Source: an uncultured Clostridia bacterium (GTDB lineage Bacteria; Bacillota; Clostridia; Oscillospirales; Acutalibacteraceae). Taken from it: DNA of 64,000 nucleotides. The notes beneath the pieces were generated by a model. That model saw only the letters and a program-made list of their open reading frames with translations, searched no databases and was not told the origin of the DNA. The stretch lies in contig CANQVS010000002.1 of NCBI GenBank assembly GCA_947627345.1, forward strand, positions 1 through 64,000, given 5' to 3'. This document shows, one piece after another, positions 10,987 through 57,989 of this stretch; position 1 is the first letter of the stretch; the number at the start of each line of letters is the position of its first letter. The translations under genes and the position numbers were made by a program.

Positions 10987-11895
10987 TTATTTAACCTTAA
11001 CTTTAACGGTCTTGGTTATTGACTTGGACTTATATGTCTTAGTACCCTTGGCGGTAACCTTAACCTTAATCTTTAAGGTAGTCTTCTTATACTTACCCTT
11101 CTTAACAGTAATCTTACCGTTCTTCTTGCTTATAGTAAGCTTCTTAGAACCTGAAACTTTCTTGTAAGAAACTGTACCTTTAGCTTTCTTGACTGTAATA
11201 GCCTTAACAGTCTGCTTAGCTTTCTTAAGCTTAGACTTCTTAACTGTCTTTGTCTTTACTGTAACCTTAATCGGGTTACTTTTTTTCTTTGTTACCTTAG
11301 AGGGCTTAGGAGTAGTCGGCTTAGGATCGGGCTTAGGCTGAACGGTTGTCGGCTGAGTAACGTCTGAAGAACTCGGTTCAGTGGAAGTTGAGTCTTCAAT
11401 CTTAGTTACGTTTCCGAGAATTTCCTCGAAAGTAACTGAGTTTGTAATATTAACGTCATTCAGATTGCATATAAACAAATTGGAGGCAGAGCGGTCAAGA
11501 GAAATCTCTCCGTTGCCTGCGCTTTTAACGCTGAATGAAACTTCAATAAGAAGGCGCTTTGCTGTGAAGTCATAACCATCATATTTAGAGAAGTTAAAGT
11601 CAATTTCATCCGTAACATTTTCAGTATAGTTAACAAGCGGTGTACCCAAAATGGAGTCAAATTTAATGTCGCTTATAGAAAGTAAAGAGCTTGGATAGTA
11701 AATAATAAACTGACCGTTCTCAATCACTTCGGGGGTTGTCATATTAATAGTATAAGTAATTGTGTCACCCTCACCGCATTCATATGTTGTACCGTTAAGT
11801 ACAATCTTTGTGCCTGAGGCCGCGCTGACTGCAGCAATCGAAATAGTTCCGATTATCAGTAAAGCCGAAAGAATAATTGCAATAGTTTTTTTCAT
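10987..11895 (-). CDS. Secreted cohesin-like domain protein with lysine-rich C-terminal tail
   Basis: 302 aa. Signal peptide (MKKTIAIILSALLIIGTISI) then a ~125-residue all-beta domain (about 27-155) whose pattern (YECGEGDTITYTINMTT, GQFIIYYPSSLLSISDIKF, LLIEVSFSVKSAGNGEISLD) resembles cohesin or related CBM-like folds. A Thr/Pro linker (PTTVQPKPDPKPTTPKPS) leads to a ~110-residue tail that is extremely lysine-rich with an Ig-like repeat (SYKKVSGSKKLTISKKNGKI). The basic tail could hold the protein on the anionic wall. If the first domain is a true cohesin it would be a single-cohesin anchor for dockerin proteins; I rate that as possible, not shown. A good AAAGGAGG site precedes the ATG. Confidence 0.65.
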   Translation of the reverse strand: MKKTIAIILSALLIIGTISIAAVSAASGTKIVLNGTTYECGEGDTITYTINMTTPEVIENGQFIIYYPSSLLSISDIKFDSILGTPLVNYTENVTDEIDFNFSKYDGYDFTAKRLLIEVSFSVKSAGNGEISLDRSASNLFICNLNDVNITNSVTFEEILGNVTKIEDSTSTEPSSSDVTQPTTVQPKPDPKPTTPKPSKVTKKKSNPIKVTVKTKTVKKSKLKKAKQTVKAITVKKAKGTVSYKKVSGSKKLTISKKNGKITVKKGKYKKTTLKIKVKVTAKGTKTYKSKSITKTVKVKVK

Positions 11896-12067: not shown

Positions 12068-14089
12068 ATGTTTAAAAGAGTACTTTCAATTTTTATTTGT
12101 GTCTTATTAATTTTATGTACTGCTTTAAATCTGTCGTCATGCTCAACTTCTTCCCAAAGCGCAGACAGTACAAACACGAATTATAATCTCACAAAAAATA
12201 TAAAAGACGGAGCAATTCTTCATTGTTTCTGCTGGGATTTTAAAACAATTGAAAATTCCCTAGAGGACATTGCGTCAGCAGGTTACAGTGCAATTCAGAC
12301 TTCTCCCGTAAACGAATGCCTTAAAGGAGAAAACGGCGGAATGAGCCTGTATAGCTTAGGCGACGGTAAGTGGTATTACCATTTTCAACCGACCGATTAC
12401 ACTATCGGTAACTATCAGCTCGGAACACGCGATGAGTTTAAATCTATGTGTAAAAAAGCAGACGAACTTGGAATTAAAGTTATTGTAGACGTAGTTGCTA
12501 ACCATACAACTCCTAATACAAGCTCAATTAATAAAAATCTCCTTGATGCCGTAGGCGGTTTAAAAAAGCTTTATCATAAAAATAACAATAAGGATATTGC
12601 TGATTACGGCGACCGACTCCAATGCACAACCTATAAAATGGGTGGTTTGCCCGACATTAATACCGAAAACAAGGCTTATCAGGATTATTTTATTAAGTAT
12701 CTTAACGACTGTATAAGCTGTGGCGCAGACGGTTTCCGTTACGACGCGGCAAAGCATATCGGACTTCCCGATGACCCAAAAGAAGCTAAAGGTATAAAAA
12801 ATAATTTCTGGGACAGAGTTACCACCGAAATAAAAAATGCTGATAAAATCTTTAACTACGGAGAAGTGTTACAGGGCGATAACGACCGTATCGGCGATTA
12901 TATAGATAAAATCGGCGCTTGTACCGCAAGTTCTTACGGTGAGGCGCTTAGAAATGCTGTAATAAGCTGTAATATTGATACAGCGTTCGTTGAGGATTTA
13001 AAGGTCGGCTCAAACGAAAACTGCGTGACGTGGGTCGAATCTCACGATAATTATATCAACGACGGCAACTGGCAGGCTATGAATAAGAAGCAGGTTATTA
13101 CCGCATGGGCTGTTATTGCGGCAAGAGCCAAAGGTACACCGTTATTCTTTGACCGTCCCATAGGCTCATCTACCGACAATCAGTGGGGAACGATGAATCG
13201 TATCGGCGCAAGCGGAGATATGTTTTATAAGGATAAAAAAGTTAAAGCCGTAAACTTTTTCAGAAACGCTATGGCGGGTGAGGACGAATATCTTATGAAT
13301 CCCGATAAAAATTCAACATCTTTGCAAATCTGCCGAGGCAACAAGGGCGCTGTAATTATAAATACAGAGGGAAAATTAAAGGTTGATTTCGAAACAAATC
13401 TTGCCGACGGCACCTATGTTGACCGCGTTGACGGTGAAACTGTATACACCGTAAAGGACGGCAAAATTACCTGCGATAAAGAAGTTCCCGAATACGGCGT
13501 TGTTGTTCTTTACAATGAAAACTACACTCAGTATGCCTCTCCAGTAACCGTAAAAGTTTCCGATAATACAAAATTCACCTATGATACAGATACCGTTAAG
13601 GTTAAGCTTCAGGCTGAAAACGCTGAAAAATCAACCTACAGCATTAACGACGGTAAGGAAAAAACATATAAAAACGGTGATAAAGTTACAATTAAATCAA
13701 AGGACGCTCTTGACGGCATAGTTACCTTAACATTAAAAGGTATGGGAAATGCGGGTCAGAAATCCTATATGAAATATTACTTTACAAACGATTCTGTTAC
13801 AGGAACAAGCACAGCGCGTGTAGTAAACGCGGGAGATAAAATATCTCTGAAAAAGCCTCAAAAATGGGGTAACAGTATTTACGCATACGTTTACGACGAC
13901 GAGGTTCAGGAAACTCCGTGGCCGGGCAATAAAATGAAAAAGAAAAAGAGCGGAATTTACGAGTATACCCTTAAATTCGATTGGGAAAATGCCTATGTAA
14001 TTTTTAATGACGGCGAAAATCAATATCCGGGTCAAAATGAACAGGGACTTGACCTTGAAGCAGATAAAGAATATTCTATTGAAGAATAA
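12068..14089 (+). CDS. Alpha-amylase lipoprotein (GH13) with C-terminal starch-binding module
   Basis: Hydrolyses alpha-1,4 bonds in starch at the cell surface. 673 aa. A lipoprotein signal ends in LSSC (lipidated C25). The GH13 barrel (about 45-500) has all four classic motifs: DVVANH (D141, H146), GFRYDAAKH (nucleophile D226), GEVLQ (acid/base E266) and VESHDN (D327). A beta domain follows (~500-585), then a CBM26-like module (about 590-673; QKWGNSIYAYVYDD, PWPGNKM, AYVIFNDGENQYPG). The order resembles Bacillus AmyE-type amylases (GH13_28). There is no dockerin, so the protein is tied to the membrane by its lipid rather than to a scaffold. It is transcribed alone. Confidence 0.93.
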   Translation: MFKRVLSIFICVLLILCTALNLSSCSTSSQSADSTNTNYNLTKNIKDGAILHCFCWDFKTIENSLEDIASAGYSAIQTSPVNECLKGENGGMSLYSLGDGKWYYHFQPTDYTIGNYQLGTRDEFKSMCKKADELGIKVIVDVVANHTTPNTSSINKNLLDAVGGLKKLYHKNNNKDIADYGDRLQCTTYKMGGLPDINTENKAYQDYFIKYLNDCISCGADGFRYDAAKHIGLPDDPKEAKGIKNNFWDRVTTEIKNADKIFNYGEVLQGDNDRIGDYIDKIGACTASSYGEALRNAVISCNIDTAFVEDLKVGSNENCVTWVESHDNYINDGNWQAMNKKQVITAWAVIAARAKGTPLFFDRPIGSSTDNQWGTMNRIGASGDMFYKDKKVKAVNFFRNAMAGEDEYLMNPDKNSTSLQICRGNKGAVIINTEGKLKVDFETNLADGTYVDRVDGETVYTVKDGKITCDKEVPEYGVVVLYNENYTQYASPVTVKVSDNTKFTYDTDTVKVKLQAENAEKSTYSINDGKEKTYKNGDKVTIKSKDALDGIVTLTLKGMGNAGQKSYMKYYFTNDSVTGTSTARVVNAGDKISLKKPQKWGNSIYAYVYDDEVQETPWPGNKMKKKKSGIYEYTLKFDWENAYVIFNDGENQYPGQNEQGLDLEADKEYSIEE

Positions 14090-16532: not shown

Positions 16533-16732
16533 AAAACAGTATAAAAAGCCTTTAAATAATACATAAAATTTTTTAAAGAAAATATTAAACAAATATTCAC
16601 AGTAAAAGTTGTGCAATTATACTATATTTAAAAAAATTTTTTAATAAAAAAATTCAATATTCTTTACTATTTTAAAAAAATGGAGTAAAATTAAATGTAA
16701 TAAATCTTGTATATACGAGAGGATAGATGTTT

Positions 16733-19700
16733 ATGAAATTAACCAGGAACTTCACAAAAATTATTTTATCATTATTAGTATTTACAATCATTGCTTCAAT
16801 GCTTATTTCTTCAGGAGTGTATGCAACAGCGGTGGAAGGAACAAAAATTAATTATACCTTCAGCGGAGATAATTCGGAAACTGCCGGTTACGCAGAGGGT
16901 ACAATCACTTTTTCATCGGATACAGCCGGTACTTATTATCTTTATTGGGCGGATGATACATCCGCGCTTAAAGGATATTATCCAATAGATGAAATAACAA
17001 TTAAGGCGGGCGAAATAGGTACATACAAATTCGGCTACCACACAGCTATACCTGCAAATGCAACAAAAATTATCGCTTGTCTTTCAAAGAGCGATGTATC
17101 CGTAAAAAATGCTGTCGCAATTTTTGATATCCCAAAGAATAAACAGCTTTTATCGGGTTCGGGTGATTTGCTTTACAGTTTTAACTCCTACTCCGATGTT
17201 CATATTGATTTAGAGGGATATTATAAAAATGCGAGTAAAAACTGGGCTCAGGCACTTAAATTCGGAGTTAATAAGGGTACTGATTTTATTGTGTCGTCAG
17301 GTGATATGGTGACAAATGCAGGCGGTCCTGACTCGGAGTGGGACGAATATGAACGTATTCTCTCGGAGTCTGATTATGTTAATCCTGTTTGGGAGTCTGA
17401 CGGAAACCACGATATGAGAAGCGGAGTTGCGTCGGGTCTTAAATCATTTGTTAAAGCGAGCGGAACAGACAGCACTATTGCAAATTATGACGCAAATAAA
17501 CCTTACTATTATGTAAAAGAGCAAAAAACAGGGGATATATTTATTTTTATGGCTCTTGAAACTAACCATAATCCCAGTGCCTCAAACGAGTTTTCTGACG
17601 CGCAGATGACGTGGCTTATTAATCTGTTAAATAAATATTACGGAACAGGGGTAAACATTTATATTGTTGAACATTCTCCAATCAACGGTTTCGGTGCAGG
17701 CGACAGGATGTCATACCCGTATTATAAAGCGCATTTAAGTCAGACGCATATTTCAACGGTTCAGTTTAGGTCTTTGTTGCAAAAATATCCAAAGCTTATT
17801 TGGATGTCGGGACATACTCACGAAGATTATTCTATGGGATATAATTATTCCAATGAAAGCAATAAAGCCTGCCATATGATACACAATCCTGCGGTTGCGG
17901 GATCGACGCTTGCAGATGAATCAAACACAGGTCTTGATTATAATGACGGATACGGTTATAACTCGCAGGGTTATTATGTTGAAACGTATCGTAATCAAGT
18001 TGTATATTACGGCGCGAATTTGACAGATGAACTTATTTATCCCGAATATTGTTACATTATGGACGGTTCAAGAGGCTCTAAGCAGGAAGAAACCAACGCA
18101 ACCGAAAAGGTTTCCACCGCTGACCCAAACGATACCACAGGCGTAACAGGCTCTACATTGCCTGCAGGAGCAGAAACAAAAACAGTTTACTTTGCAAATA
18201 CTCTAAAATGGGGAACTGTAGATTGCTACAGCTGGTCGGATGAAGATAAAACTTCCTGTACTTGGCCGGGATACGGAGCTGTATATTACGGTACAAATGA
18301 GCAGGGAGTGGATCTTTATTACTGCAAAATACCTAAATCTCATACAAAAATAATTTGGAATAACGGTAATAATGGTTATCAGACAGTTGATATTGAGCTT
18401 GACGGCGTAAACGATTTCTTCACTCCGTCAACTACTGTAAACAGTGATGCTGTCACCGTATCTAAATCTGTTTGGGATTATAACCTGCCTACAGAATCAA
18501 AGGAAACTACCGAACCTCCCGTAAGCAGTAAAGATACGGAAACATCAAAAAGCAGTGAAGATACAACAGCCTCCGAAAGCAAGGAAGATACTACTGCGTC
18601 TGAAAGCAGAGAGGATACTACTTCTTCCGAGAGCAAAGAGGAAACTACAGCATCTCAAAGCAGTAAGAATACGGAGTCCGCTGAAACCGATAAACCGACA
18701 GAATCAACCTCAACCGATGCAAGTAAATATAAGCTTGGCGATGTTAACTTGAGCGGAGAAGTTAATATCAGCGACGTAACCGCTATACAGAAATATATAG
18801 CAAAGCTTGTTACATTCAGCAACGAACAGATTAAACTTGCGGATATTGACGGCGATGAACGTGTTTCAATTAAAGACGCCACATTGATTCAAAAACTTCT
18901 TGCTAAAATTATTAAAGATTTTAATTTAACACAGCAGAATGAAAATAATACACAAGGTAATGTTTCACAGAAGATTAAGAATAAAATTGTCAAAACAGGT
19001 GCGTCAAATCTTGTAGGAAAGCTTACAGAAGTTAAGACGATGCTTGACGGTTACTATACATTTGCTTCCTATGATCAGTACCAGTCACTAAAGAAAATGT
19101 ACTATAAGTACAAGAACAATTCGTTTGTTGATAACGAAAGTGAGGTTGTTGCCGAATTTGATAAATTAATATCAGCGCTTGACGTTATTGCTCAACACAT
19201 AGGTATTCAAAAGATTTATCCCTTATCAGATACTTATTTCTTTGAGAATACTTACAACTGGTCTACGGTTAAATGTTACGCTTGGAAGGGTTCGAGCGAA
19301 ATCGGCGAATGGCCCGGTGTAAGCGTGCAAAAGGTTGGTACAAATCAAGGTCATGATGTTTACGGTATAAAATTTGAATATGTAGGGCAGTATAATAAAG
19401 TTATATTTAACGACGGCAAAAAAGACGGCGCAACTCAAACGATAAATATTGATTTGAGTCAATATGAATTTAATTGTTTCTACCTCAACGGCAAAAAGGA
19501 TTCAGACGGAAAACTTGATGTAGGAAACTTTAACTATAATAGTCCGATTCAGCCGACAACTCCTCCTATTACTACAAAAAATGTTTCTGATAATAAGCGT
19601 TATGCTATGTGTTATTATAACTCAAGTGCTCATTCTTGGTCTGATATAGATACATTCCTAATGCCTCAAAGCGACGGAACCTATGCTATTGATTTTGTTA

Positions 19701-20314
19701 CAAAAAACAACAGCGATATTAATATGTGTATTTATGATAACTCTTCTGCAAGATATAATTGCGTTTCCGACAGCACAAGTTTTACCTATTCAAACGGAGA
19801 GGAGCATAACTACGGATTAGTCGGTTCTTCCTCAAGAGGCAAGAGTATTACTGTTAACGGCTTATCAAGCGGATTGATTTTAAGACTTGAATATAATCCA
19901 AAAAATAACTCTGTTAAAATCATATGTAAAGGTTCTTCGGGTGTCGACCCGACTGAAAGCCAGACTGATTCCCAAAATGAAACCTATACGCTTTATATGG
20001 CTCCGACTGTGTCTGACATAAATGCGGGAAATATTTTTAAAGTAAACATTAAGGACAGCTCGTCAAGTTACCATACATATGACTTCAGCAGAACAAATAT
20101 GAAGTTTAACGGCAGAGATGTTTATAGCGCCCAGATAACAAATCCAAGCTATAACAATGTTATTAAAGTTCAATATCAGGTTCTTGATTCTAATTCAAAA
20201 TGGATTGCGCAAGTAGCAGATGAAAGAAACACAACCTTATCATATTACAGCGGTAAAATTATGGTTTGTTCCGCTTCAGATAAAGGAACGCTTCAAATCT
20301 TTGTTGCTGACTAA
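16733..20314 (+). CDS. Secreted metallophosphoesterase with dockerin and two CBM26-like starch-binding modules
   Basis: 1193 aa. Start 16733 is preferred (AGAGGAT 9 bp upstream; the ATG at 16727 is too close). Order: signal peptide; beta domain (~35-140); calcineurin-like phosphoesterase (~140-440) with all metal motifs, SDVH (D155, H157), SGD (D191), GNHD (N225, H226), H314 in VEHSP, and GHTH (H361, H363); CBM26-like module 1 (~482-570; TWPGYG, KIIWNNGNNGYQ); Ser/Thr/Glu linker; dockerin with two F-hand calcium loops (DVNLSGEVNISD at 670, DIDGDERVSIKD at 704); helical spacer; CBM26-like module 2 (~830-925); two beta regions (~935-1193). The dockerin predicts binding to a cohesin, as in amylosomes. 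The enzyme may remove phosphate from starch; that is inference. Expression context: single gene, terminator at 20428. Confidence 0.88.
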   Translation: MKLTRNFTKIILSLLVFTIIASMLISSGVYATAVEGTKINYTFSGDNSETAGYAEGTITFSSDTAGTYYLYWADDTSALKGYYPIDEITIKAGEIGTYKFGYHTAIPANATKIIACLSKSDVSVKNAVAIFDIPKNKQLLSGSGDLLYSFNSYSDVHIDLEGYYKNASKNWAQALKFGVNKGTDFIVSSGDMVTNAGGPDSEWDEYERILSESDYVNPVWESDGNHDMRSGVASGLKSFVKASGTDSTIANYDANKPYYYVKEQKTGDIFIFMALETNHNPSASNEFSDAQMTWLINLLNKYYGTGVNIYIVEHSPINGFGAGDRMSYPYYKAHLSQTHISTVQFRSLLQKYPKLIWMSGHTHEDYSMGYNYSNESNKACHMIHNPAVAGSTLADESNTGLDYNDGYGYNSQGYYVETYRNQVVYYGANLTDELIYPEYCYIMDGSRGSKQEETNATEKVSTADPNDTTGVTGSTLPAGAETKTVYFANTLKWGTVDCYSWSDEDKTSCTWPGYGAVYYGTNEQGVDLYYCKIPKSHTKIIWNNGNNGYQTVDIELDGVNDFFTPSTTVNSDAVTVSKSVWDYNLPTESKETTEPPVSSKDTETSKSSEDTTASESKEDTTASESREDTTSSESKEETTASQSSKNTESAETDKPTESTSTDASKYKLGDVNLSGEVNISDVTAIQKYIAKLVTFSNEQIKLADIDGDERVSIKDATLIQKLLAKIIKDFNLTQQNENNTQGNVSQKIKNKIVKTGASNLVGKLTEVKTMLDGYYTFASYDQYQSLKKMYYKYKNNSFVDNESEVVAEFDKLISALDVIAQHIGIQKIYPLSDTYFFENTYNWSTVKCYAWKGSSEIGEWPGVSVQKVGTNQGHDVYGIKFEYVGQYNKVIFNDGKKDGATQTINIDLSQYEFNCFYLNGKKDSDGKLDVGNFNYNSPIQPTTPPITTKNVSDNKRYAMCYYNSSAHSWSDIDTFLMPQSDGTYAIDFVTKNNSDINMCIYDNSSARYNCVSDSTSFTYSNGEEHNYGLVGSSSRGKSITVNGLSSGLILRLEYNPKNNSVKIICKGSSGVDPTESQTDSQNETYTLYMAPTVSDINAGNIFKVNIKDSSSSYHTYDFSRTNMKFNGRDVYSAQITNPSYNNVIKVQYQVLDSNSKWIAQVADERNTTLSYYSGKIMVCSASDKGTLQIFVAD

Positions 20315-20427
20315 AACTATTCGATTTTATTAATGTATCATCAATAGTTTTTGGTAACCGAAAAAGTTAAAAAATAAGACTATATGTTATTAGTTGGACT
20401 AAACCCGAAAAAGGAAATTAAATAATA

Positions 20428-20464
20428 AACAAGCGACAGCAAATTAAGCTGTCGCTTGTTTTGT
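20428..20464 (+). terminator. Terminator of the dockerin phosphatase gene
   Basis: The 13-bp stem AACAAGCGACAGC/GCTGTCGCTTGTT is followed by TTTG. It lies 113 bp after the stop; 20315-20427 holds nothing recognisable. Confidence 0.85.
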
Positions 20465-20480
20465 TCAACAAATTAAAAAT

Positions 20481-20883
20481 AAAAGCAGTCCGTTCGGACT
20501 GCTTTAATGGTGACCCATCGGAGGAAAAGATAAATCAGAGAACATAAATCTCGAACCTTGCGTCCGCATAAGGGAGAAAAGTTTCATCAACGCTCCTCGA
20601 TAAAAATGTCTCGCAGGGACATTTTTTAACCCTCGGCTTCAAATCTCCTCAGGGCAAGAAAAAAGCAGTCCGTTCAGACTGCTTTAATGGTGACCCATCG
20701 GAGGAAAAGATAAATCAGAGAACAACAATCTCGAACCTTGTGTCCACGTTGGGGAGAAAAGTTTCATCAACGCTCCTCGGTAAAAATGTCCCGCAGGGAC
20801 ATTTTTTAACCCTCGGCTTCAAATCTCCTCAGGGCAAGAAAAAAGCAGTCCGTTCGGACTGCTTTAATGGTGACCCATCGGAG
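20481..20883 (-). repeat. Tandem 180-bp repeat grown from the 3' end of tRNA-Lys
   Basis: Two full units (20481-20660, 20661-20840) and the start of a third (20841-20883), which is the tail of the real tRNA-Lys gene and its terminator. The period is exactly 180 bp. Each unit on the minus strand ends in CCGATGGGTCACCA, identical to the tRNA-Lys 3' end, followed by the stem AAAGCAGTCC/GGACTGCTTT. Each also has an inner hairpin (ATGTC..CGCAG..GACAT) and the blocks GAAGCCGAGGGTT and CGAGGAGCGTT, both shared with the repeat near tRNA-Leu (58.2-59.1 kb). Confidence 0.9.
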
Positions 20884-53429: not shown

Positions 53430-56400
53430 ATGAAAACTAAAACTCTTAAAAGGTTCACATCAATTTTATTAGCGTTTTTAATAATGACATCTTTAACTAT
53501 TGTTACAAACGCAGAAAACCTTGACTCTTCAAACAAATCTGATGTAGTTAAAAAGATGTCCTGGAAAGAAAAAATTGATGATAATCTTTGGAAAAAAATT
53601 GATTCTGCAAACACAAATGATAAAATTTCTGTATGGCTTTGGTTTACCGATATTGATCAAGAAAAGGTAGACAAGCAGGTTAAAAAAAGTACAGGATTAA
53701 CTGCCGATAATCTCGCAACAAACTACAAATCCGTACCGAAAAGTTTGGTAAATATGTTGGAAGACGCGTCTGAAAATACTGATAACAGTAAGCAGCATAA
53801 AATTTTATCCGATAAGATTAAAGACTATGTTAATGATACTAAGTCCCAGCGGAAATTGGAGCAAAAGCGAACTAACACATATATAAAAGCCCGCAGAAAA
53901 GCGGCAAGTAATTTGTATGTGGAAAAGAACAGCGCTTTGATAAAAGAATTAAATTTACCTCAAAGCGAGATAACTTTTCAAAGTATGCTTACGCCTTCTG
54001 CGATTATTAACCTTACCAAAGATGAAATTTTTAAAGCCGCAAAATCCAATGATGTAGTCAGCATTAATTTTTATGATGATACAGAACAAGAACCTCCAAT
54101 GTGTGAAAACCAAAGACTGTCTATGAGATCGGATTTTGCCAAAGAAGAGTTTGGTTTGACAGGCGAAGGCATAAATGTTTTGATGAATGACCACGGCTGC
54201 GTACGGTCAGACGCTTCGGGATATGACTTAATAAGTGATCCGGACAAAGTTAAAGTGGTTTTTGACGGACGTCTTTATCCGGTAACTCAAACGGATATTA
54301 TTCCCGGAAGCAGTTCGGACGGACACCCTAATTTTATATGTGCAACAATGCAGTCTTTTACAGATGGAATGAATATATATTCAGCAGGTTATCAGTGCTA
54401 TAACGATGTGGAATGGGCAGTTTTGAACTGTGATATTCATTTTATAAACGGAAGCATAAATTTAGGAACATATGAAACTTATTCAGTTGATGCACCTGCA
54501 AAATGGTTTGACGGATTAGTAAGTACCAATAATGTAACATTGATTGCAAGTGCAGGCAACGATGAGGGATGGCAGCCTTCCGGATGGCCTGATGTTATAT
54601 CTCCGTCAAGCGGTTATAACAGTATTGCTGCAGGCGCTTACGCTGCAGACGGCAACCCTGATAATGACACTATGTTTGATTTCAGATACAATCCTATTGT
54701 AGACAATAATAAAGTTTGTTTTAAGCCGGATATGGTTATGGCTGCTAATAGTACAAGTGAAGCGTCTCCGTCGCTGTCGGGAATCCTTTCTATGGTTTTA
54801 GAGTTAAAACCCTCTCTTGCCGCAAATCCTGAATTGGTAAAAGCTATTTTAATGGCTTCATGTCAGCGTAAGGTTAAGCCCGCGTATGGAACAGGGGGCC
54901 AGGAAAGTATGTTAGATGGATTGACGCAAAGGCAGGGAGCCGGTGCGGTTGATGCTTATCGTGCAGTCAGCATTGTTCTTCAAGGGAATTATGGATTGGG
55001 AGAAATAACTTCCGATTCTACAGATATAAATATGGTTCAGACGGCAGAAGGAAAAAACATTAGTGTTAGTTTGTCGTGGCTTATAAATAATACTAACGAA
55101 TCCTGTTACCCTGAGGCAGGTACAAATGTAGGAACGCTTCAAGACCTTTATCTTGATGTGTATAACAGCGACTCGAAGATTATGTCTGACTCATCAAGGA
55201 GAAATCTTGGTAAGCAAATGGTATGTTTCCCTGCTGATTCTGATGATGGTAAATATACAATTCGAGTGACAAAGGCAAGTGAAAACACAGAGCCTGTTAA
55301 GTATGGTTACGCCTGGAGCACTGAAGATACATCGGGAAAAAACATAACGTTTTCAACAAAAAATTCAGACGGTATTTTAACCGAACAAGAGATTAGAGAA
55401 CAGTTGGCTGAAGCCGGAATCGGAATGCAAGGGACTTATACACCGTTTTTTGCTGACTTTGATGAAACTGTAACAGGTATTGAAGAATACGCCTTTGCAG
55501 GTTGCTCTGATATTAGAAAAGTAACATTAAATAGAAATATCACTAATATTGGTAACGATGTTTTTTATCTATGCGAGAATCTTCATAGTGCAGTGTTGCC
55601 TGATAATTTGAAAAAAATTCCTTTAGCTCTGTTTTATGATTGTGAGAAACTTGAAAATGTAGTTATCCCCGAAGGCGTAACTTCTATTGATGGTTTGGCA
55701 TTTGGATTGTGCCGTTCATTAAAAAATATAACTCTCCCCAAAAGCTTAACATATATTGATTCTTCAGCTTTCTGCTATTCAGGCATTACAAGTTTAACAA
55801 TACCAAATAATGTAGTCGAAATAGGTAAATACGCATTTCAAAATTGCGAAAAACTTGAGAGTGTGGTTATTGGTAGCGGTGTAAAAACCATTGGCGAAAA
55901 AGCATTTAATAATTGTACAAGCCTTTTAAGTGTAGACCTTCTTCCCTTAACCGCCCCCACAATAGGCGCTCTTGCTTTCAGTAATTTGGCAAAAGGCTCA
56001 AAAGGATATGTTGACCCGGATTCATCCGGATATGCAAATTCATATGATGATTTATCTATTGAAGACAAGACTGATATTAGAACCGTTTATTTCACCAACA
56101 ATTACGACTGGGGAAATTTAAAAGCATATTTATGGAAGGACGGCAAATCTCGAAATAACTCGTGGCCGGGCGCTTCAATGAAATATGTATATACAAATTA
56201 TCTTGGTCAGAAAGTTTATTCGATAACATTAGATTATAAAAAATATGATATGATTATTTTTAATGATGGTAATGGTCAGAATCAAACTGTAGATATTAAG
56301 ATTGGCGATAATAATACCGGTTATTACTTAACAGGAACTAAGACAGGAAATAATTGGAATGTATCTACTTTTAAGCCGGATGTAAGAACCATTTATTTTA

Positions 56401-56690
56401 CAAATAATTATGGCGGAAATAATTTAAAGGCATATTTATGGAAGGATGGAACTTCGCAGAATAATAATTGGCCCGGAGTTTCAATGACGTATGCGTCTAC
56501 AAATTATCTTGGTCAGGATATTTATTCAATTACATTCGACTACAATGAATATGATATGGTAATTTTCAGTTATGACAACGGACAATGCCAGACTATAGAT
56601 ATTAAAGTAGGTGTTGACGGAATAGGTTACTATTATTCAGGAGGTGTATACCAAGGTAAATTGTTAGTAAACACATATATTTATCAATAA
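53430..56690 (+). CDS. Secreted subtilase-like protease with LRR_5 repeats and two CBM26-like modules
   Basis: 1086 aa. Signal peptide (~1-28), a helical inhibitor-type propeptide region (~45-225), then a divergent S8 domain with a full triad: D254 (VLMNDHG), H299 (DGHPNF), S443 (NSTSEASP), and oxyanion N377 (SAGND). The His and Ser motifs differ from HGTHVAG and GTSMASP. Next come about six BspA-type LRR_5 units (~690-870) and two CBM26-like modules (~882-983, ~985-1085; YFTNNYDWGNLKAYLWKDG, WPGASM). It may cut protein in or around starch granules; inference. AAGGAG lies 13 bp from the start, with a two-codon ATG-CAA-TGA in between. Confidence 0.82.
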   Translation: MKTKTLKRFTSILLAFLIMTSLTIVTNAENLDSSNKSDVVKKMSWKEKIDDNLWKKIDSANTNDKISVWLWFTDIDQEKVDKQVKKSTGLTADNLATNYKSVPKSLVNMLEDASENTDNSKQHKILSDKIKDYVNDTKSQRKLEQKRTNTYIKARRKAASNLYVEKNSALIKELNLPQSEITFQSMLTPSAIINLTKDEIFKAAKSNDVVSINFYDDTEQEPPMCENQRLSMRSDFAKEEFGLTGEGINVLMNDHGCVRSDASGYDLISDPDKVKVVFDGRLYPVTQTDIIPGSSSDGHPNFICATMQSFTDGMNIYSAGYQCYNDVEWAVLNCDIHFINGSINLGTYETYSVDAPAKWFDGLVSTNNVTLIASAGNDEGWQPSGWPDVISPSSGYNSIAAGAYAADGNPDNDTMFDFRYNPIVDNNKVCFKPDMVMAANSTSEASPSLSGILSMVLELKPSLAANPELVKAILMASCQRKVKPAYGTGGQESMLDGLTQRQGAGAVDAYRAVSIVLQGNYGLGEITSDSTDINMVQTAEGKNISVSLSWLINNTNESCYPEAGTNVGTLQDLYLDVYNSDSKIMSDSSRRNLGKQMVCFPADSDDGKYTIRVTKASENTEPVKYGYAWSTEDTSGKNITFSTKNSDGILTEQEIREQLAEAGIGMQGTYTPFFADFDETVTGIEEYAFAGCSDIRKVTLNRNITNIGNDVFYLCENLHSAVLPDNLKKIPLALFYDCEKLENVVIPEGVTSIDGLAFGLCRSLKNITLPKSLTYIDSSAFCYSGITSLTIPNNVVEIGKYAFQNCEKLESVVIGSGVKTIGEKAFNNCTSLLSVDLLPLTAPTIGALAFSNLAKGSKGYVDPDSSGYANSYDDLSIEDKTDIRTVYFTNNYDWGNLKAYLWKDGKSRNNSWPGASMKYVYTNYLGQKVYSITLDYKKYDMIIFNDGNGQNQTVDIKIGDNNTGYYLTGTKTGNNWNVSTFKPDVRTIYFTNNYGGNNLKAYLWKDGTSQNNNWPGVSMTYASTNYLGQDIYSITFDYNEYDMVIFSYDNGQCQTIDIKVGVDGIGYYYSGGVYQGKLLVNTYIYQ

Positions 56691-56744
56691 AAAGATTTTT
56701 ACAATGTACTTTATATTAATTTTAATGAAATAATGGAGGAAAAA

Positions 56745-57989
56745 ATGAAACATATAAAAAATTTTATTAGTTTAATGATGATTTTGTCAATTTGTTTAAC
56801 CATATTTGTAATGCCTGTAACTGCAAACGCGGAAACCAACGAAAAAGTAAAGATTGAATTTTATAAGCCCGATAACTGGGGAGATAATATAAATATTCAT
56901 CTTTGGAATGCAGGCGATGAAGATACTCAGTGGCCCGGTGTTGCAATGTCACCAAGCGGAGGCAATACGTATACATATTCAAGTGATACACTTACATCTT
57001 GTAACTTTGTAATAAATGACGGCTCAAATCAGACTTCCGATTTATATGCTGAAGGATTTGTCGGAGTAAAGGATAATAAGGTTTTTAAAAAGTGCTACGG
57101 TAATATTAATATAAACTTTAATAAACCTTCTTATTGGTCCGATGATATTAAAATTTATTATTACACCAATGACTCAAATGAGGTTTCATTTGCAGATTGG
57201 CCCGGTGTTCCTATGAACATAAATCAAACCCGCGACGGATATAGTTACTATATAAACGGACTAAAAGATATTAGAGTTTTATTTACTGACGGAATACATC
57301 AGTATCCTGCGGCAGGTGAACCTGGTATTCCTGTTTCAGCGGGTCAGGAGTTATTGTTTGTTGAAGATAAATATACTGTAAATAATTATAATTGGGTAAA
57401 TGTAAACCAGCCGACAACATACGCTGTTGTTGGAGAAGATTATCACATCTATTATAACTTTACAAAGGGTGATGATTTCAGCCTGAAGTTTGAAGATGAA
57501 TATGGAAATATTATTAAGCCGACTAATCATGTTTATACGATGAAAAATGATAAAGTATATAATGACTATACATTTAATTTTTCTGAAACAGGTACTAAGA
57601 CTATAAAGGCATTTTATTATTATCATTCCGGTTATGGTGATTTAAACAGAGATGTTAAGGTTAAAGTATTGCCACAAACAAATGTATCTACTCCTGATAA
57701 AATATTTGCCGATAAGTATAATGTCGAGCTTGGTGATACATTTACCATAAGCGTTTCTCAGTGTGATAAGCTTTCCTATCATTTTTATGATGATAACGGA
57801 AATGAAATTCCGTGTGATAACTTCTATTACACAAATAATGATAATGGTTCTTATATTAATTATGTTTTCACGGCAAATAAACTTGGAGAATATCAAAAAT
57901 TTAATTGTTATTCTTCGCATGCATATAGTCCATATTCAAGAATAAACCGTGAGAATTCTGTTACAATTAATGTATGGAAAACAATATAA
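56745..57989 (+). CDS. Secreted starch-binding protein, no catalytic domain
   Basis: 414 aa. ATG 56745 is used (GGAGG 6 bp upstream; the ATG at 56733 overlaps the site). Signal peptide, then two CBM26-like modules (~28-110: DNWGDNINIHLWNAG, WPGVAM, VINDGSNQ; ~115-215: SYWSDDIKIYYYTND, WPGVPM, LFTDGIHQYP), then two Ig-like beta domains (~230-320, ~325-414). It resembles starch-adherence proteins of R. bromii in concept (binding only). No dockerin or wall anchor is visible. It follows the protease gene by 54 bp, probably in the same transcript. Confidence 0.82.
   Translation: MKHIKNFISLMMILSICLTIFVMPVTANAETNEKVKIEFYKPDNWGDNINIHLWNAGDEDTQWPGVAMSPSGGNTYTYSSDTLTSCNFVINDGSNQTSDLYAEGFVGVKDNKVFKKCYGNININFNKPSYWSDDIKIYYYTNDSNEVSFADWPGVPMNINQTRDGYSYYINGLKDIRVLFTDGIHQYPAAGEPGIPVSAGQELLFVEDKYTVNNYNWVNVNQPTTYAVVGEDYHIYYNFTKGDDFSLKFEDEYGNIIKPTNHVYTMKNDKVYNDYTFNFSETGTKTIKAFYYYHSGYGDLNRDVKVKVLPQTNVSTPDKIFADKYNVELGDTFTISVSQCDKLSYHFYDDNGNEIPCDNFYYTNNDNGSYINYVFTANKLGEYQKFNCYSSHAYSPYSRINRENSVTINVWKTI

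Follow-up and report, generated by a model that had tools for sequence, protein, structure and literature searches.

A dockerin-bearing metallophosphoesterase with starch-binding modules, a candidate component of clostridial amylosomes

The window analysed here, a stretch of 64,000 nucleotides (contig CANQVS010000002.1) from an uncultured Clostridia bacterium of the family Acutalibacteraceae, which lives in the gut and is a relative of the starch-degrading Ruminococcus bromii, encodes a 1195-amino-acid protein (open reading frame 16727-20314, + strand, no internal stop) that joins a dimetal phosphoesterase (MPE) domain to two CBM26 starch-binding modules and a type I dockerin. The original prediction, made from the sequence alone, had placed a phosphatase, two CBM26 modules and a dockerin in this one protein, and Pfam confirms the combination (Metallophos, Dockerin_1, and CBM26 in two stretches with 71 bits). 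Judging from the sequence, the architecture is richer than described in that prediction, with an extra beta domain, a three-helix module (HEL), an X25-like module and a C-terminal module. We estimate an even chance that the protein is a secreted amylosome phosphoesterase which is held on starch and most likely cleaves phosphate monoesters of amylopectin. If so, the amylosome would gain a new activity and, with it, a component of a new catalytic class, and the docked enzyme is a candidate answer to the question of how gut bacteria handle the phosphate esters on dietary starch; we regard it as a strong lead.

Architecture and predicted catalytic site of the phosphoesterase

From the N-terminus, the order of modules is signal peptide, beta domain, MPE, CBM26, type I dockerin, HEL, CBM26, X25/SusF-like beta-sandwich (XB, or X25-like module) and a part weakly resembling CBM41 and CBM20; all coordinates of modules given below refer to the + strand. 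Translation would start at 16727 or at the in-frame position 16733: GAGAGGA, similar to a ribosome-binding site, lies upstream of the start, and the near-identical homologue P0001 begins at the second methionine. The N-terminus is hydrophobic as judged by eye, suggesting a putative signal peptide (16727-16828 with the start codon, residues ~1-34) and secretion of the protein. The N-terminal beta domain (16820-17140, residues ~32-138, with strands from E8 to E103 in the AF2 model) belongs to the conserved core of the family in the alignment of homologues. No glycoside hydrolase domain was found in the protein with Pfam, and no NCBIfam family matched it at its cut-off.

The calcineurin-like phosphoesterase domain (17162-18094, residues 146-456), delineated by Pfam, metal ligands, the AF2 model and fold matches, is complete, as originally claimed: it matches Metallophos (PF00149) with 24.6 bits against a cut-off of 21.5, contains all five MPE ligand motifs, and has eight predicted metal ligands (D157, H159, D193, N227, H228, H316, H363 and H365) that are unchanged in each of the 224 full-length domains of the family. 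The predicted local distance difference test (pLDDT) score of the domain in the AF2 model is 92.2. Catalytic competence follows from the sequence, and from it we infer catalysis.

Two classes of phosphatase were considered and rejected. SEX4, LSF2 and laforin, of plants and animals, are Cys-based dual-specificity phosphatases whose DSP domain carries a CX5R motif. The protein described here would resemble them in pairing a phosphatase with glucan binding but differs in that its catalytic domain is a dimetal MPE, accompanied by CBM26/X25 modules and a dockerin; a dual-specificity glucan phosphatase of the SEX4/laforin type was discarded because no DSP match was found (Pfam, E <= 1). The signature of purple acid phosphatases (PAPs) includes a Tyr metal ligand in GDxxY and a DxG motif; membership in this class, which includes the wheat PAP phytase, was discarded because GDMVT replaces GDxxY and DVH (in SDVH) replaces DxG. 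In the numbering of the domain, T165 is conserved at 90% or more among 41 sequences.

Starch-binding modules, dockerin and the amylosome

The first CBM26 module (18185-18394; 46.1 bits, cut-off 28.1) matches Amy16 and Amy10 of R. bromii, and the second (19241-19441) matches the same two proteins and also Sas6. They flank a Ser/Thr/Glu-rich linker, evident in the translation (18494-18727), and the dockerin (18734-18901; 48.4 bits, cut-off 22.9). The latter is followed by HEL (19016-19204, residues 764-826, three helices in the model), the core partner of MPE. The X25/SusF-like beta-sandwich (19586-19933, residues 954-1069), a predicted starch-binding module, is close to SusF and Sca5 in a fold match, and the C-terminal beta-sandwich (19973-20311, residues 1083-1195) has a CBM41/CBM20-like fold; as a profile, the C-terminal part has an additional match in Eubacterium rectale Amy13K. 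Homology to solved amylosome proteins of R. bromii thus bears out the predicted starch-binding modules. The predicted dockerin, matched by PF00404 with 43.5 bits in Pfam, is of type I, with two Ca loops discernible by eye (DVNLSGEVNISD and DIDGDERVSIKD), and aligns both with the dockerins of two R. bromii enzymes, Amy16 and Amy10, and with those of cellulosomal enzymes. These similarities lend good support to starch targeting and docking, and the protein probably binds starch.

CBM26 or X25 modules and dockerins are shared with the R. bromii amylosome (Amy4, Amy9, Amy10, Amy12, Amy16, Sas6 and Sas20). However, none of the R. bromii amylosome proteins named in the consulted parts of the literature is a phosphoesterase, whereas the protein in the window is a phosphoesterase without a glycoside hydrolase. 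Amylosome models, in the excerpts of PMC5814915 and PMC9112005, are built from amylases, pullulanases, scaffoldins and binding proteins. The word 'phosphoesterase' does not occur in the accessible main texts of PMC5814915, PMC9112005, PMC11557425, PMC12997984 and PMC6231298, which is not a claim of absence from print, and the 'phosphatase' passages in the accessible parts of PMC8953710, PMC13188927 and PMC12042331 concern sporulation, plant LSF2 or the title of a reference.

The genome that contains the window appears to encode an amylosome. A profile search yielded 16 dockerin hits, 30 CBM26 hits (25 above the cut-off) and two cohesin hits barely above the cut-off, one of them inside the window (11434-11772) and the other elsewhere in the genome (G000:C8:47052-47405). 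The genome also encodes a counterpart of R. bromii Amy10 that is related to it over its full length (1085 bits over residues 50-1290) and a protein with similarity to Amy4 and Amy16. The phosphoesterase presumably docks to a particular cohesin. A second copy of the phosphoesterase in the same genome (670 amino acids, 47% identity) has the arrangement MPE-HEL-CBM26 without a dockerin, with a borderline CBM26 (28.8 bits in one scan and 25.0 in another, cut-off 28.1). In the Amy4/Amy16-like protein (L131:1231-3783), an Amy4-like GH13 catalytic part is fused to an Amy16-like dockerin-CBM26 tail, a case, by sequence comparison, of module swapping between amylosome enzymes.

Module combinations in the homologue family

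Homologue searches gave 352 long and 265 short proteins; the best 120 of each set comprise 229 distinct listed homologues (109 of them short), to which the following counts refer. Modules were counted with local hidden Markov models (HMMs) trained on the same proteins and laxer than Pfam, and selecting by length enriches the long set for modules. An MPE-HEL core was detected in 218 of the 229 proteins, CBM26 in 125, an X25-like module in 121 (an assignment that across the family extends the fold match of one member), the PUD module, which we take to be CBM41, in 18, and a dockerin in 62. Precomputed labels for the same proteins give 118, 18 and 50 for CBM26, PUD and dockerin, respectively, all 50 dockerins being among the local 62; the local CBM26 model missed one of the 118 and added eight. 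The proposed search for a conserved phosphatase-CBM26 fusion thus recovered it in many genomes. Of the 229, 165 (120/120 long, 45/109 short) contain one or more predicted alpha-glucan-binding modules, as do all 62 dockerin-bearing proteins.

CBM26 and PUD/CBM41 both occupy the slot after MPE-HEL and never occur together among the 229. All 18 PUD forms lack a dockerin, which suggests a starch link independent of amylosomes, and in the FastTree tree (built from 134 of 244 domains after thinning at 80% identity, with stars on 58 of its 131 inner branches) they group with plain MPE-HEL proteins, away from the large CBM26 group. The order MPE-HEL-CBM26-XB is seen in 40 of the 229; in the window's protein, the first CBM26, the linker and the dockerin are instead located between MPE and HEL. 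This gap is the most common position of the dockerin (50 proteins), followed by the N-terminus (7) and the C-terminus (4); the remaining dockerin follows an MPE without HEL in a protein that stops inside the dockerin. Among the seven N-terminal dockerins, a precomputed Pfam dockerin is found in P0029 only; both repeats are complete by eye in five, and in two the protein begins inside the module. On the single tree, parsimony requires the dockerin to change nine times in presence and 12 times in position. Dockerin and starch modules, by these comparisons, are repeatedly joined to one MPE family, and the combination is no chance fusion.

Distribution across genomes

Of the 161 genomes from the genus of the window, 96 match the family at E <= 1e-3 and 94 also at E <= 1e-20; dockerins were found in all 161. 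A close version (at least 58% identity) is present in 20 of the 96 matching genomes; the others are diverged. The local HMM finds CBM26 in 19 of 20 diverged paralogues of the genus, the exception being a short frame, and among 10 of these 20 analysed with Pfam, MPE is found in 10, CBM26 above the cut-off in nine and a dockerin above the cut-off in eight. Beyond the genus, 10 of 295 genomes of an order-wide sample match at E <= 1e-20, including the genome of the window and one congener, and in a class-wide sample at least five of 391 match, again including that genome, with at most three candidates scored per genome. Relatives in the order's other families are more remote, with 25-36% identity along the part that matches. 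A scan of named genomes with two peptide patterns yielded 86 relatives; of the 80 listed, nearly all are named as Clostridia, including Ruminococcus, Lachnospiraceae and Oscillospiraceae, mostly metagenome-assembled genomes and many from animal gut, and R. bromii is not among them.

In two genomes, G109 and G122, close homologues are interrupted by an in-frame TGA or split into separate frames, and at one locus (L138; G315:C42:29000-48000) a distant MPE relative ends a 3571-amino-acid open frame that holds one TAG.

Proposed function and alternative explanations

Under the proposed mechanism, the dockerin would plug the phosphoesterase into the amylosome; the two CBM26 modules, the X25-like module and perhaps a CBM41/20-like module would hold it on the starch granule, where it would hydrolyse the C6 and C3 phosphate monoesters of amylopectin; and this would release phosphate and clear an obstacle for the GH13 amylases and pullulanases with which the enzyme shares the complex. 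Starch phosphate is suggested as the substrate because one MPE family is repeatedly paired with at least three predicted kinds of alpha-glucan-binding modules. More broadly, and tentatively, this may be the first extracellular bacterial family of glucan phosphatases, with an MPE fold and several recruitments into amylosomes, which dephosphorylates dietary starch and sets the gut fermentability of phosphorylated starches such as that of potato.

Several observations weigh against this function. A genome that we take to represent R. bromii, the champion of resistant-starch degradation, gave no match to the MPE family; this genome (G005) encodes the CBM26 region of R. bromii Amy16 at 97% identity and yields 27 dockerin hits (37 of 45 candidates scored), and 27 dockerin proteins are given for R. 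bromii in the consulted part of PMC9112005. Hence, although the family is common in the genus of the window, R. bromii appears to lack the gene, and studies of this model species would have missed it. Among seven distant frames analysed with Pfam, none has CBM26, two have a dockerin, one has Cna_B, three have MPE alone and one, a piece of a split gene, has no match; two closer relatives, which belong to the same family but a different genus, both have CBM26, so the starch link seems to be a trait of a subfamily and not lineage-wide. No starch module was recognised in 64 of the 229 listed homologues. A lone X25 lobe of Sca5 or Sas20 failed to bind, according to the excerpt of PMC9112005. CBM26 also occurs in the window on a leucine-rich repeat (LRR) protein in which no enzyme domain is recognised; this implies that the CBM fixes place, not chemistry. 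Evidence for an operon or cluster with GH13 genes was sought and rejected: when the upstream GH13 amylase of the window served as the sole query (BLASTP, E <= 1e-6, flanks of up to 8 kb, many shorter), a GH13 relative was located near MPE in one of 80 loci, that of a near-identical strain. Finally, monoesterases and diesterases tie as neighbours of the MPE domain in the fold search (13-19% identity), and this model-based comparison does not separate the two activities.

The last observation bears on a fairly unlikely alternative, that the substrate is other phosphorus of the granule, either lysophospholipids complexed with cereal amylose (which would imply a diesterase) or trapped phytate, the CBMs and the dockerin merely placing the enzyme. 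Against it, the fold matches are distant and tied with many others, and Pfam recognised nothing lipid-binding or saposin-like in the protein (E <= 1). Phosphodiesterases of the GpdQ, Rv0805 and SMPDL3 types show 15-19% identity to the MPE domain in the fold search, and we know of no starch modules in them.

It is unlikely that the protein is instead a general scavenger of phosphate from nucleotides or sugar phosphates, tethered at the starch-cell interface where the cell lives. Such a role would be compatible with the wide occurrence of CBM26 in the genome, including the LRR protein, with the distant relatives that lack starch modules, and with the plain MPE-HEL (55) and plain MPE (9) forms among the 229 listed homologues; against it, only two of the six MPE hits in the genome carry CBM26, and modules of three kinds (CBM26, PUD and X25-like) are repeatedly fused to one MPE family. 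That the protein acts as a starch adhesin in which the MPE domain persists as a structural or adhesive relic, as might be imagined from the dockerin-bearing Sas20, which the consulted part of PMC9112005 describes as a starch-binding protein, is highly improbable because invariance of the metal ligands is unexpected for a relic.

Gene neighbourhood and other features of the window

The phosphoesterase gene looks monocistronic. A GH13 amylase with CBM26 (12068-14089, + strand; Pfam) and a cohesin-like open reading frame (10987-11895, - strand) are located 3-6 kb upstream. The latter encodes a 302-amino-acid protein with a Lys-rich tail that matches PF00963 with 24.9 bits (cut-off 24.1), does not appear among hmmscan hits at E <= 0.01, and has weak PDB matches to 7urp (E 0.0078) and to the cellulosomal scaffoldin B 4ums (E 0.016); it may be a small scaffoldin or anchor with a single cohesin. 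On the 3' side of the phosphoesterase gene, a consensus scan identified a 14-pair palindromic, terminator-like hairpin (20427-20461), listed for the - strand and assigned to neither strand here.

Further downstream lies a 180-bp direct repeat (20476-20883), comprising two full copies at 93% identity and 48 bp or more of a third, and extending into a tRNA-Lys gene; each copy contains a AAAGCAGTCC/GGACTGCTTT hairpin, and the repeats are perhaps remnants of a tRNA array. The LRR protein mentioned above, of the LRR_5 family, has two CBM26 modules (53430-56690, + strand) and is followed by a 418-amino-acid protein that also has two (56733-57989, + strand); both are possible starch adhesins.
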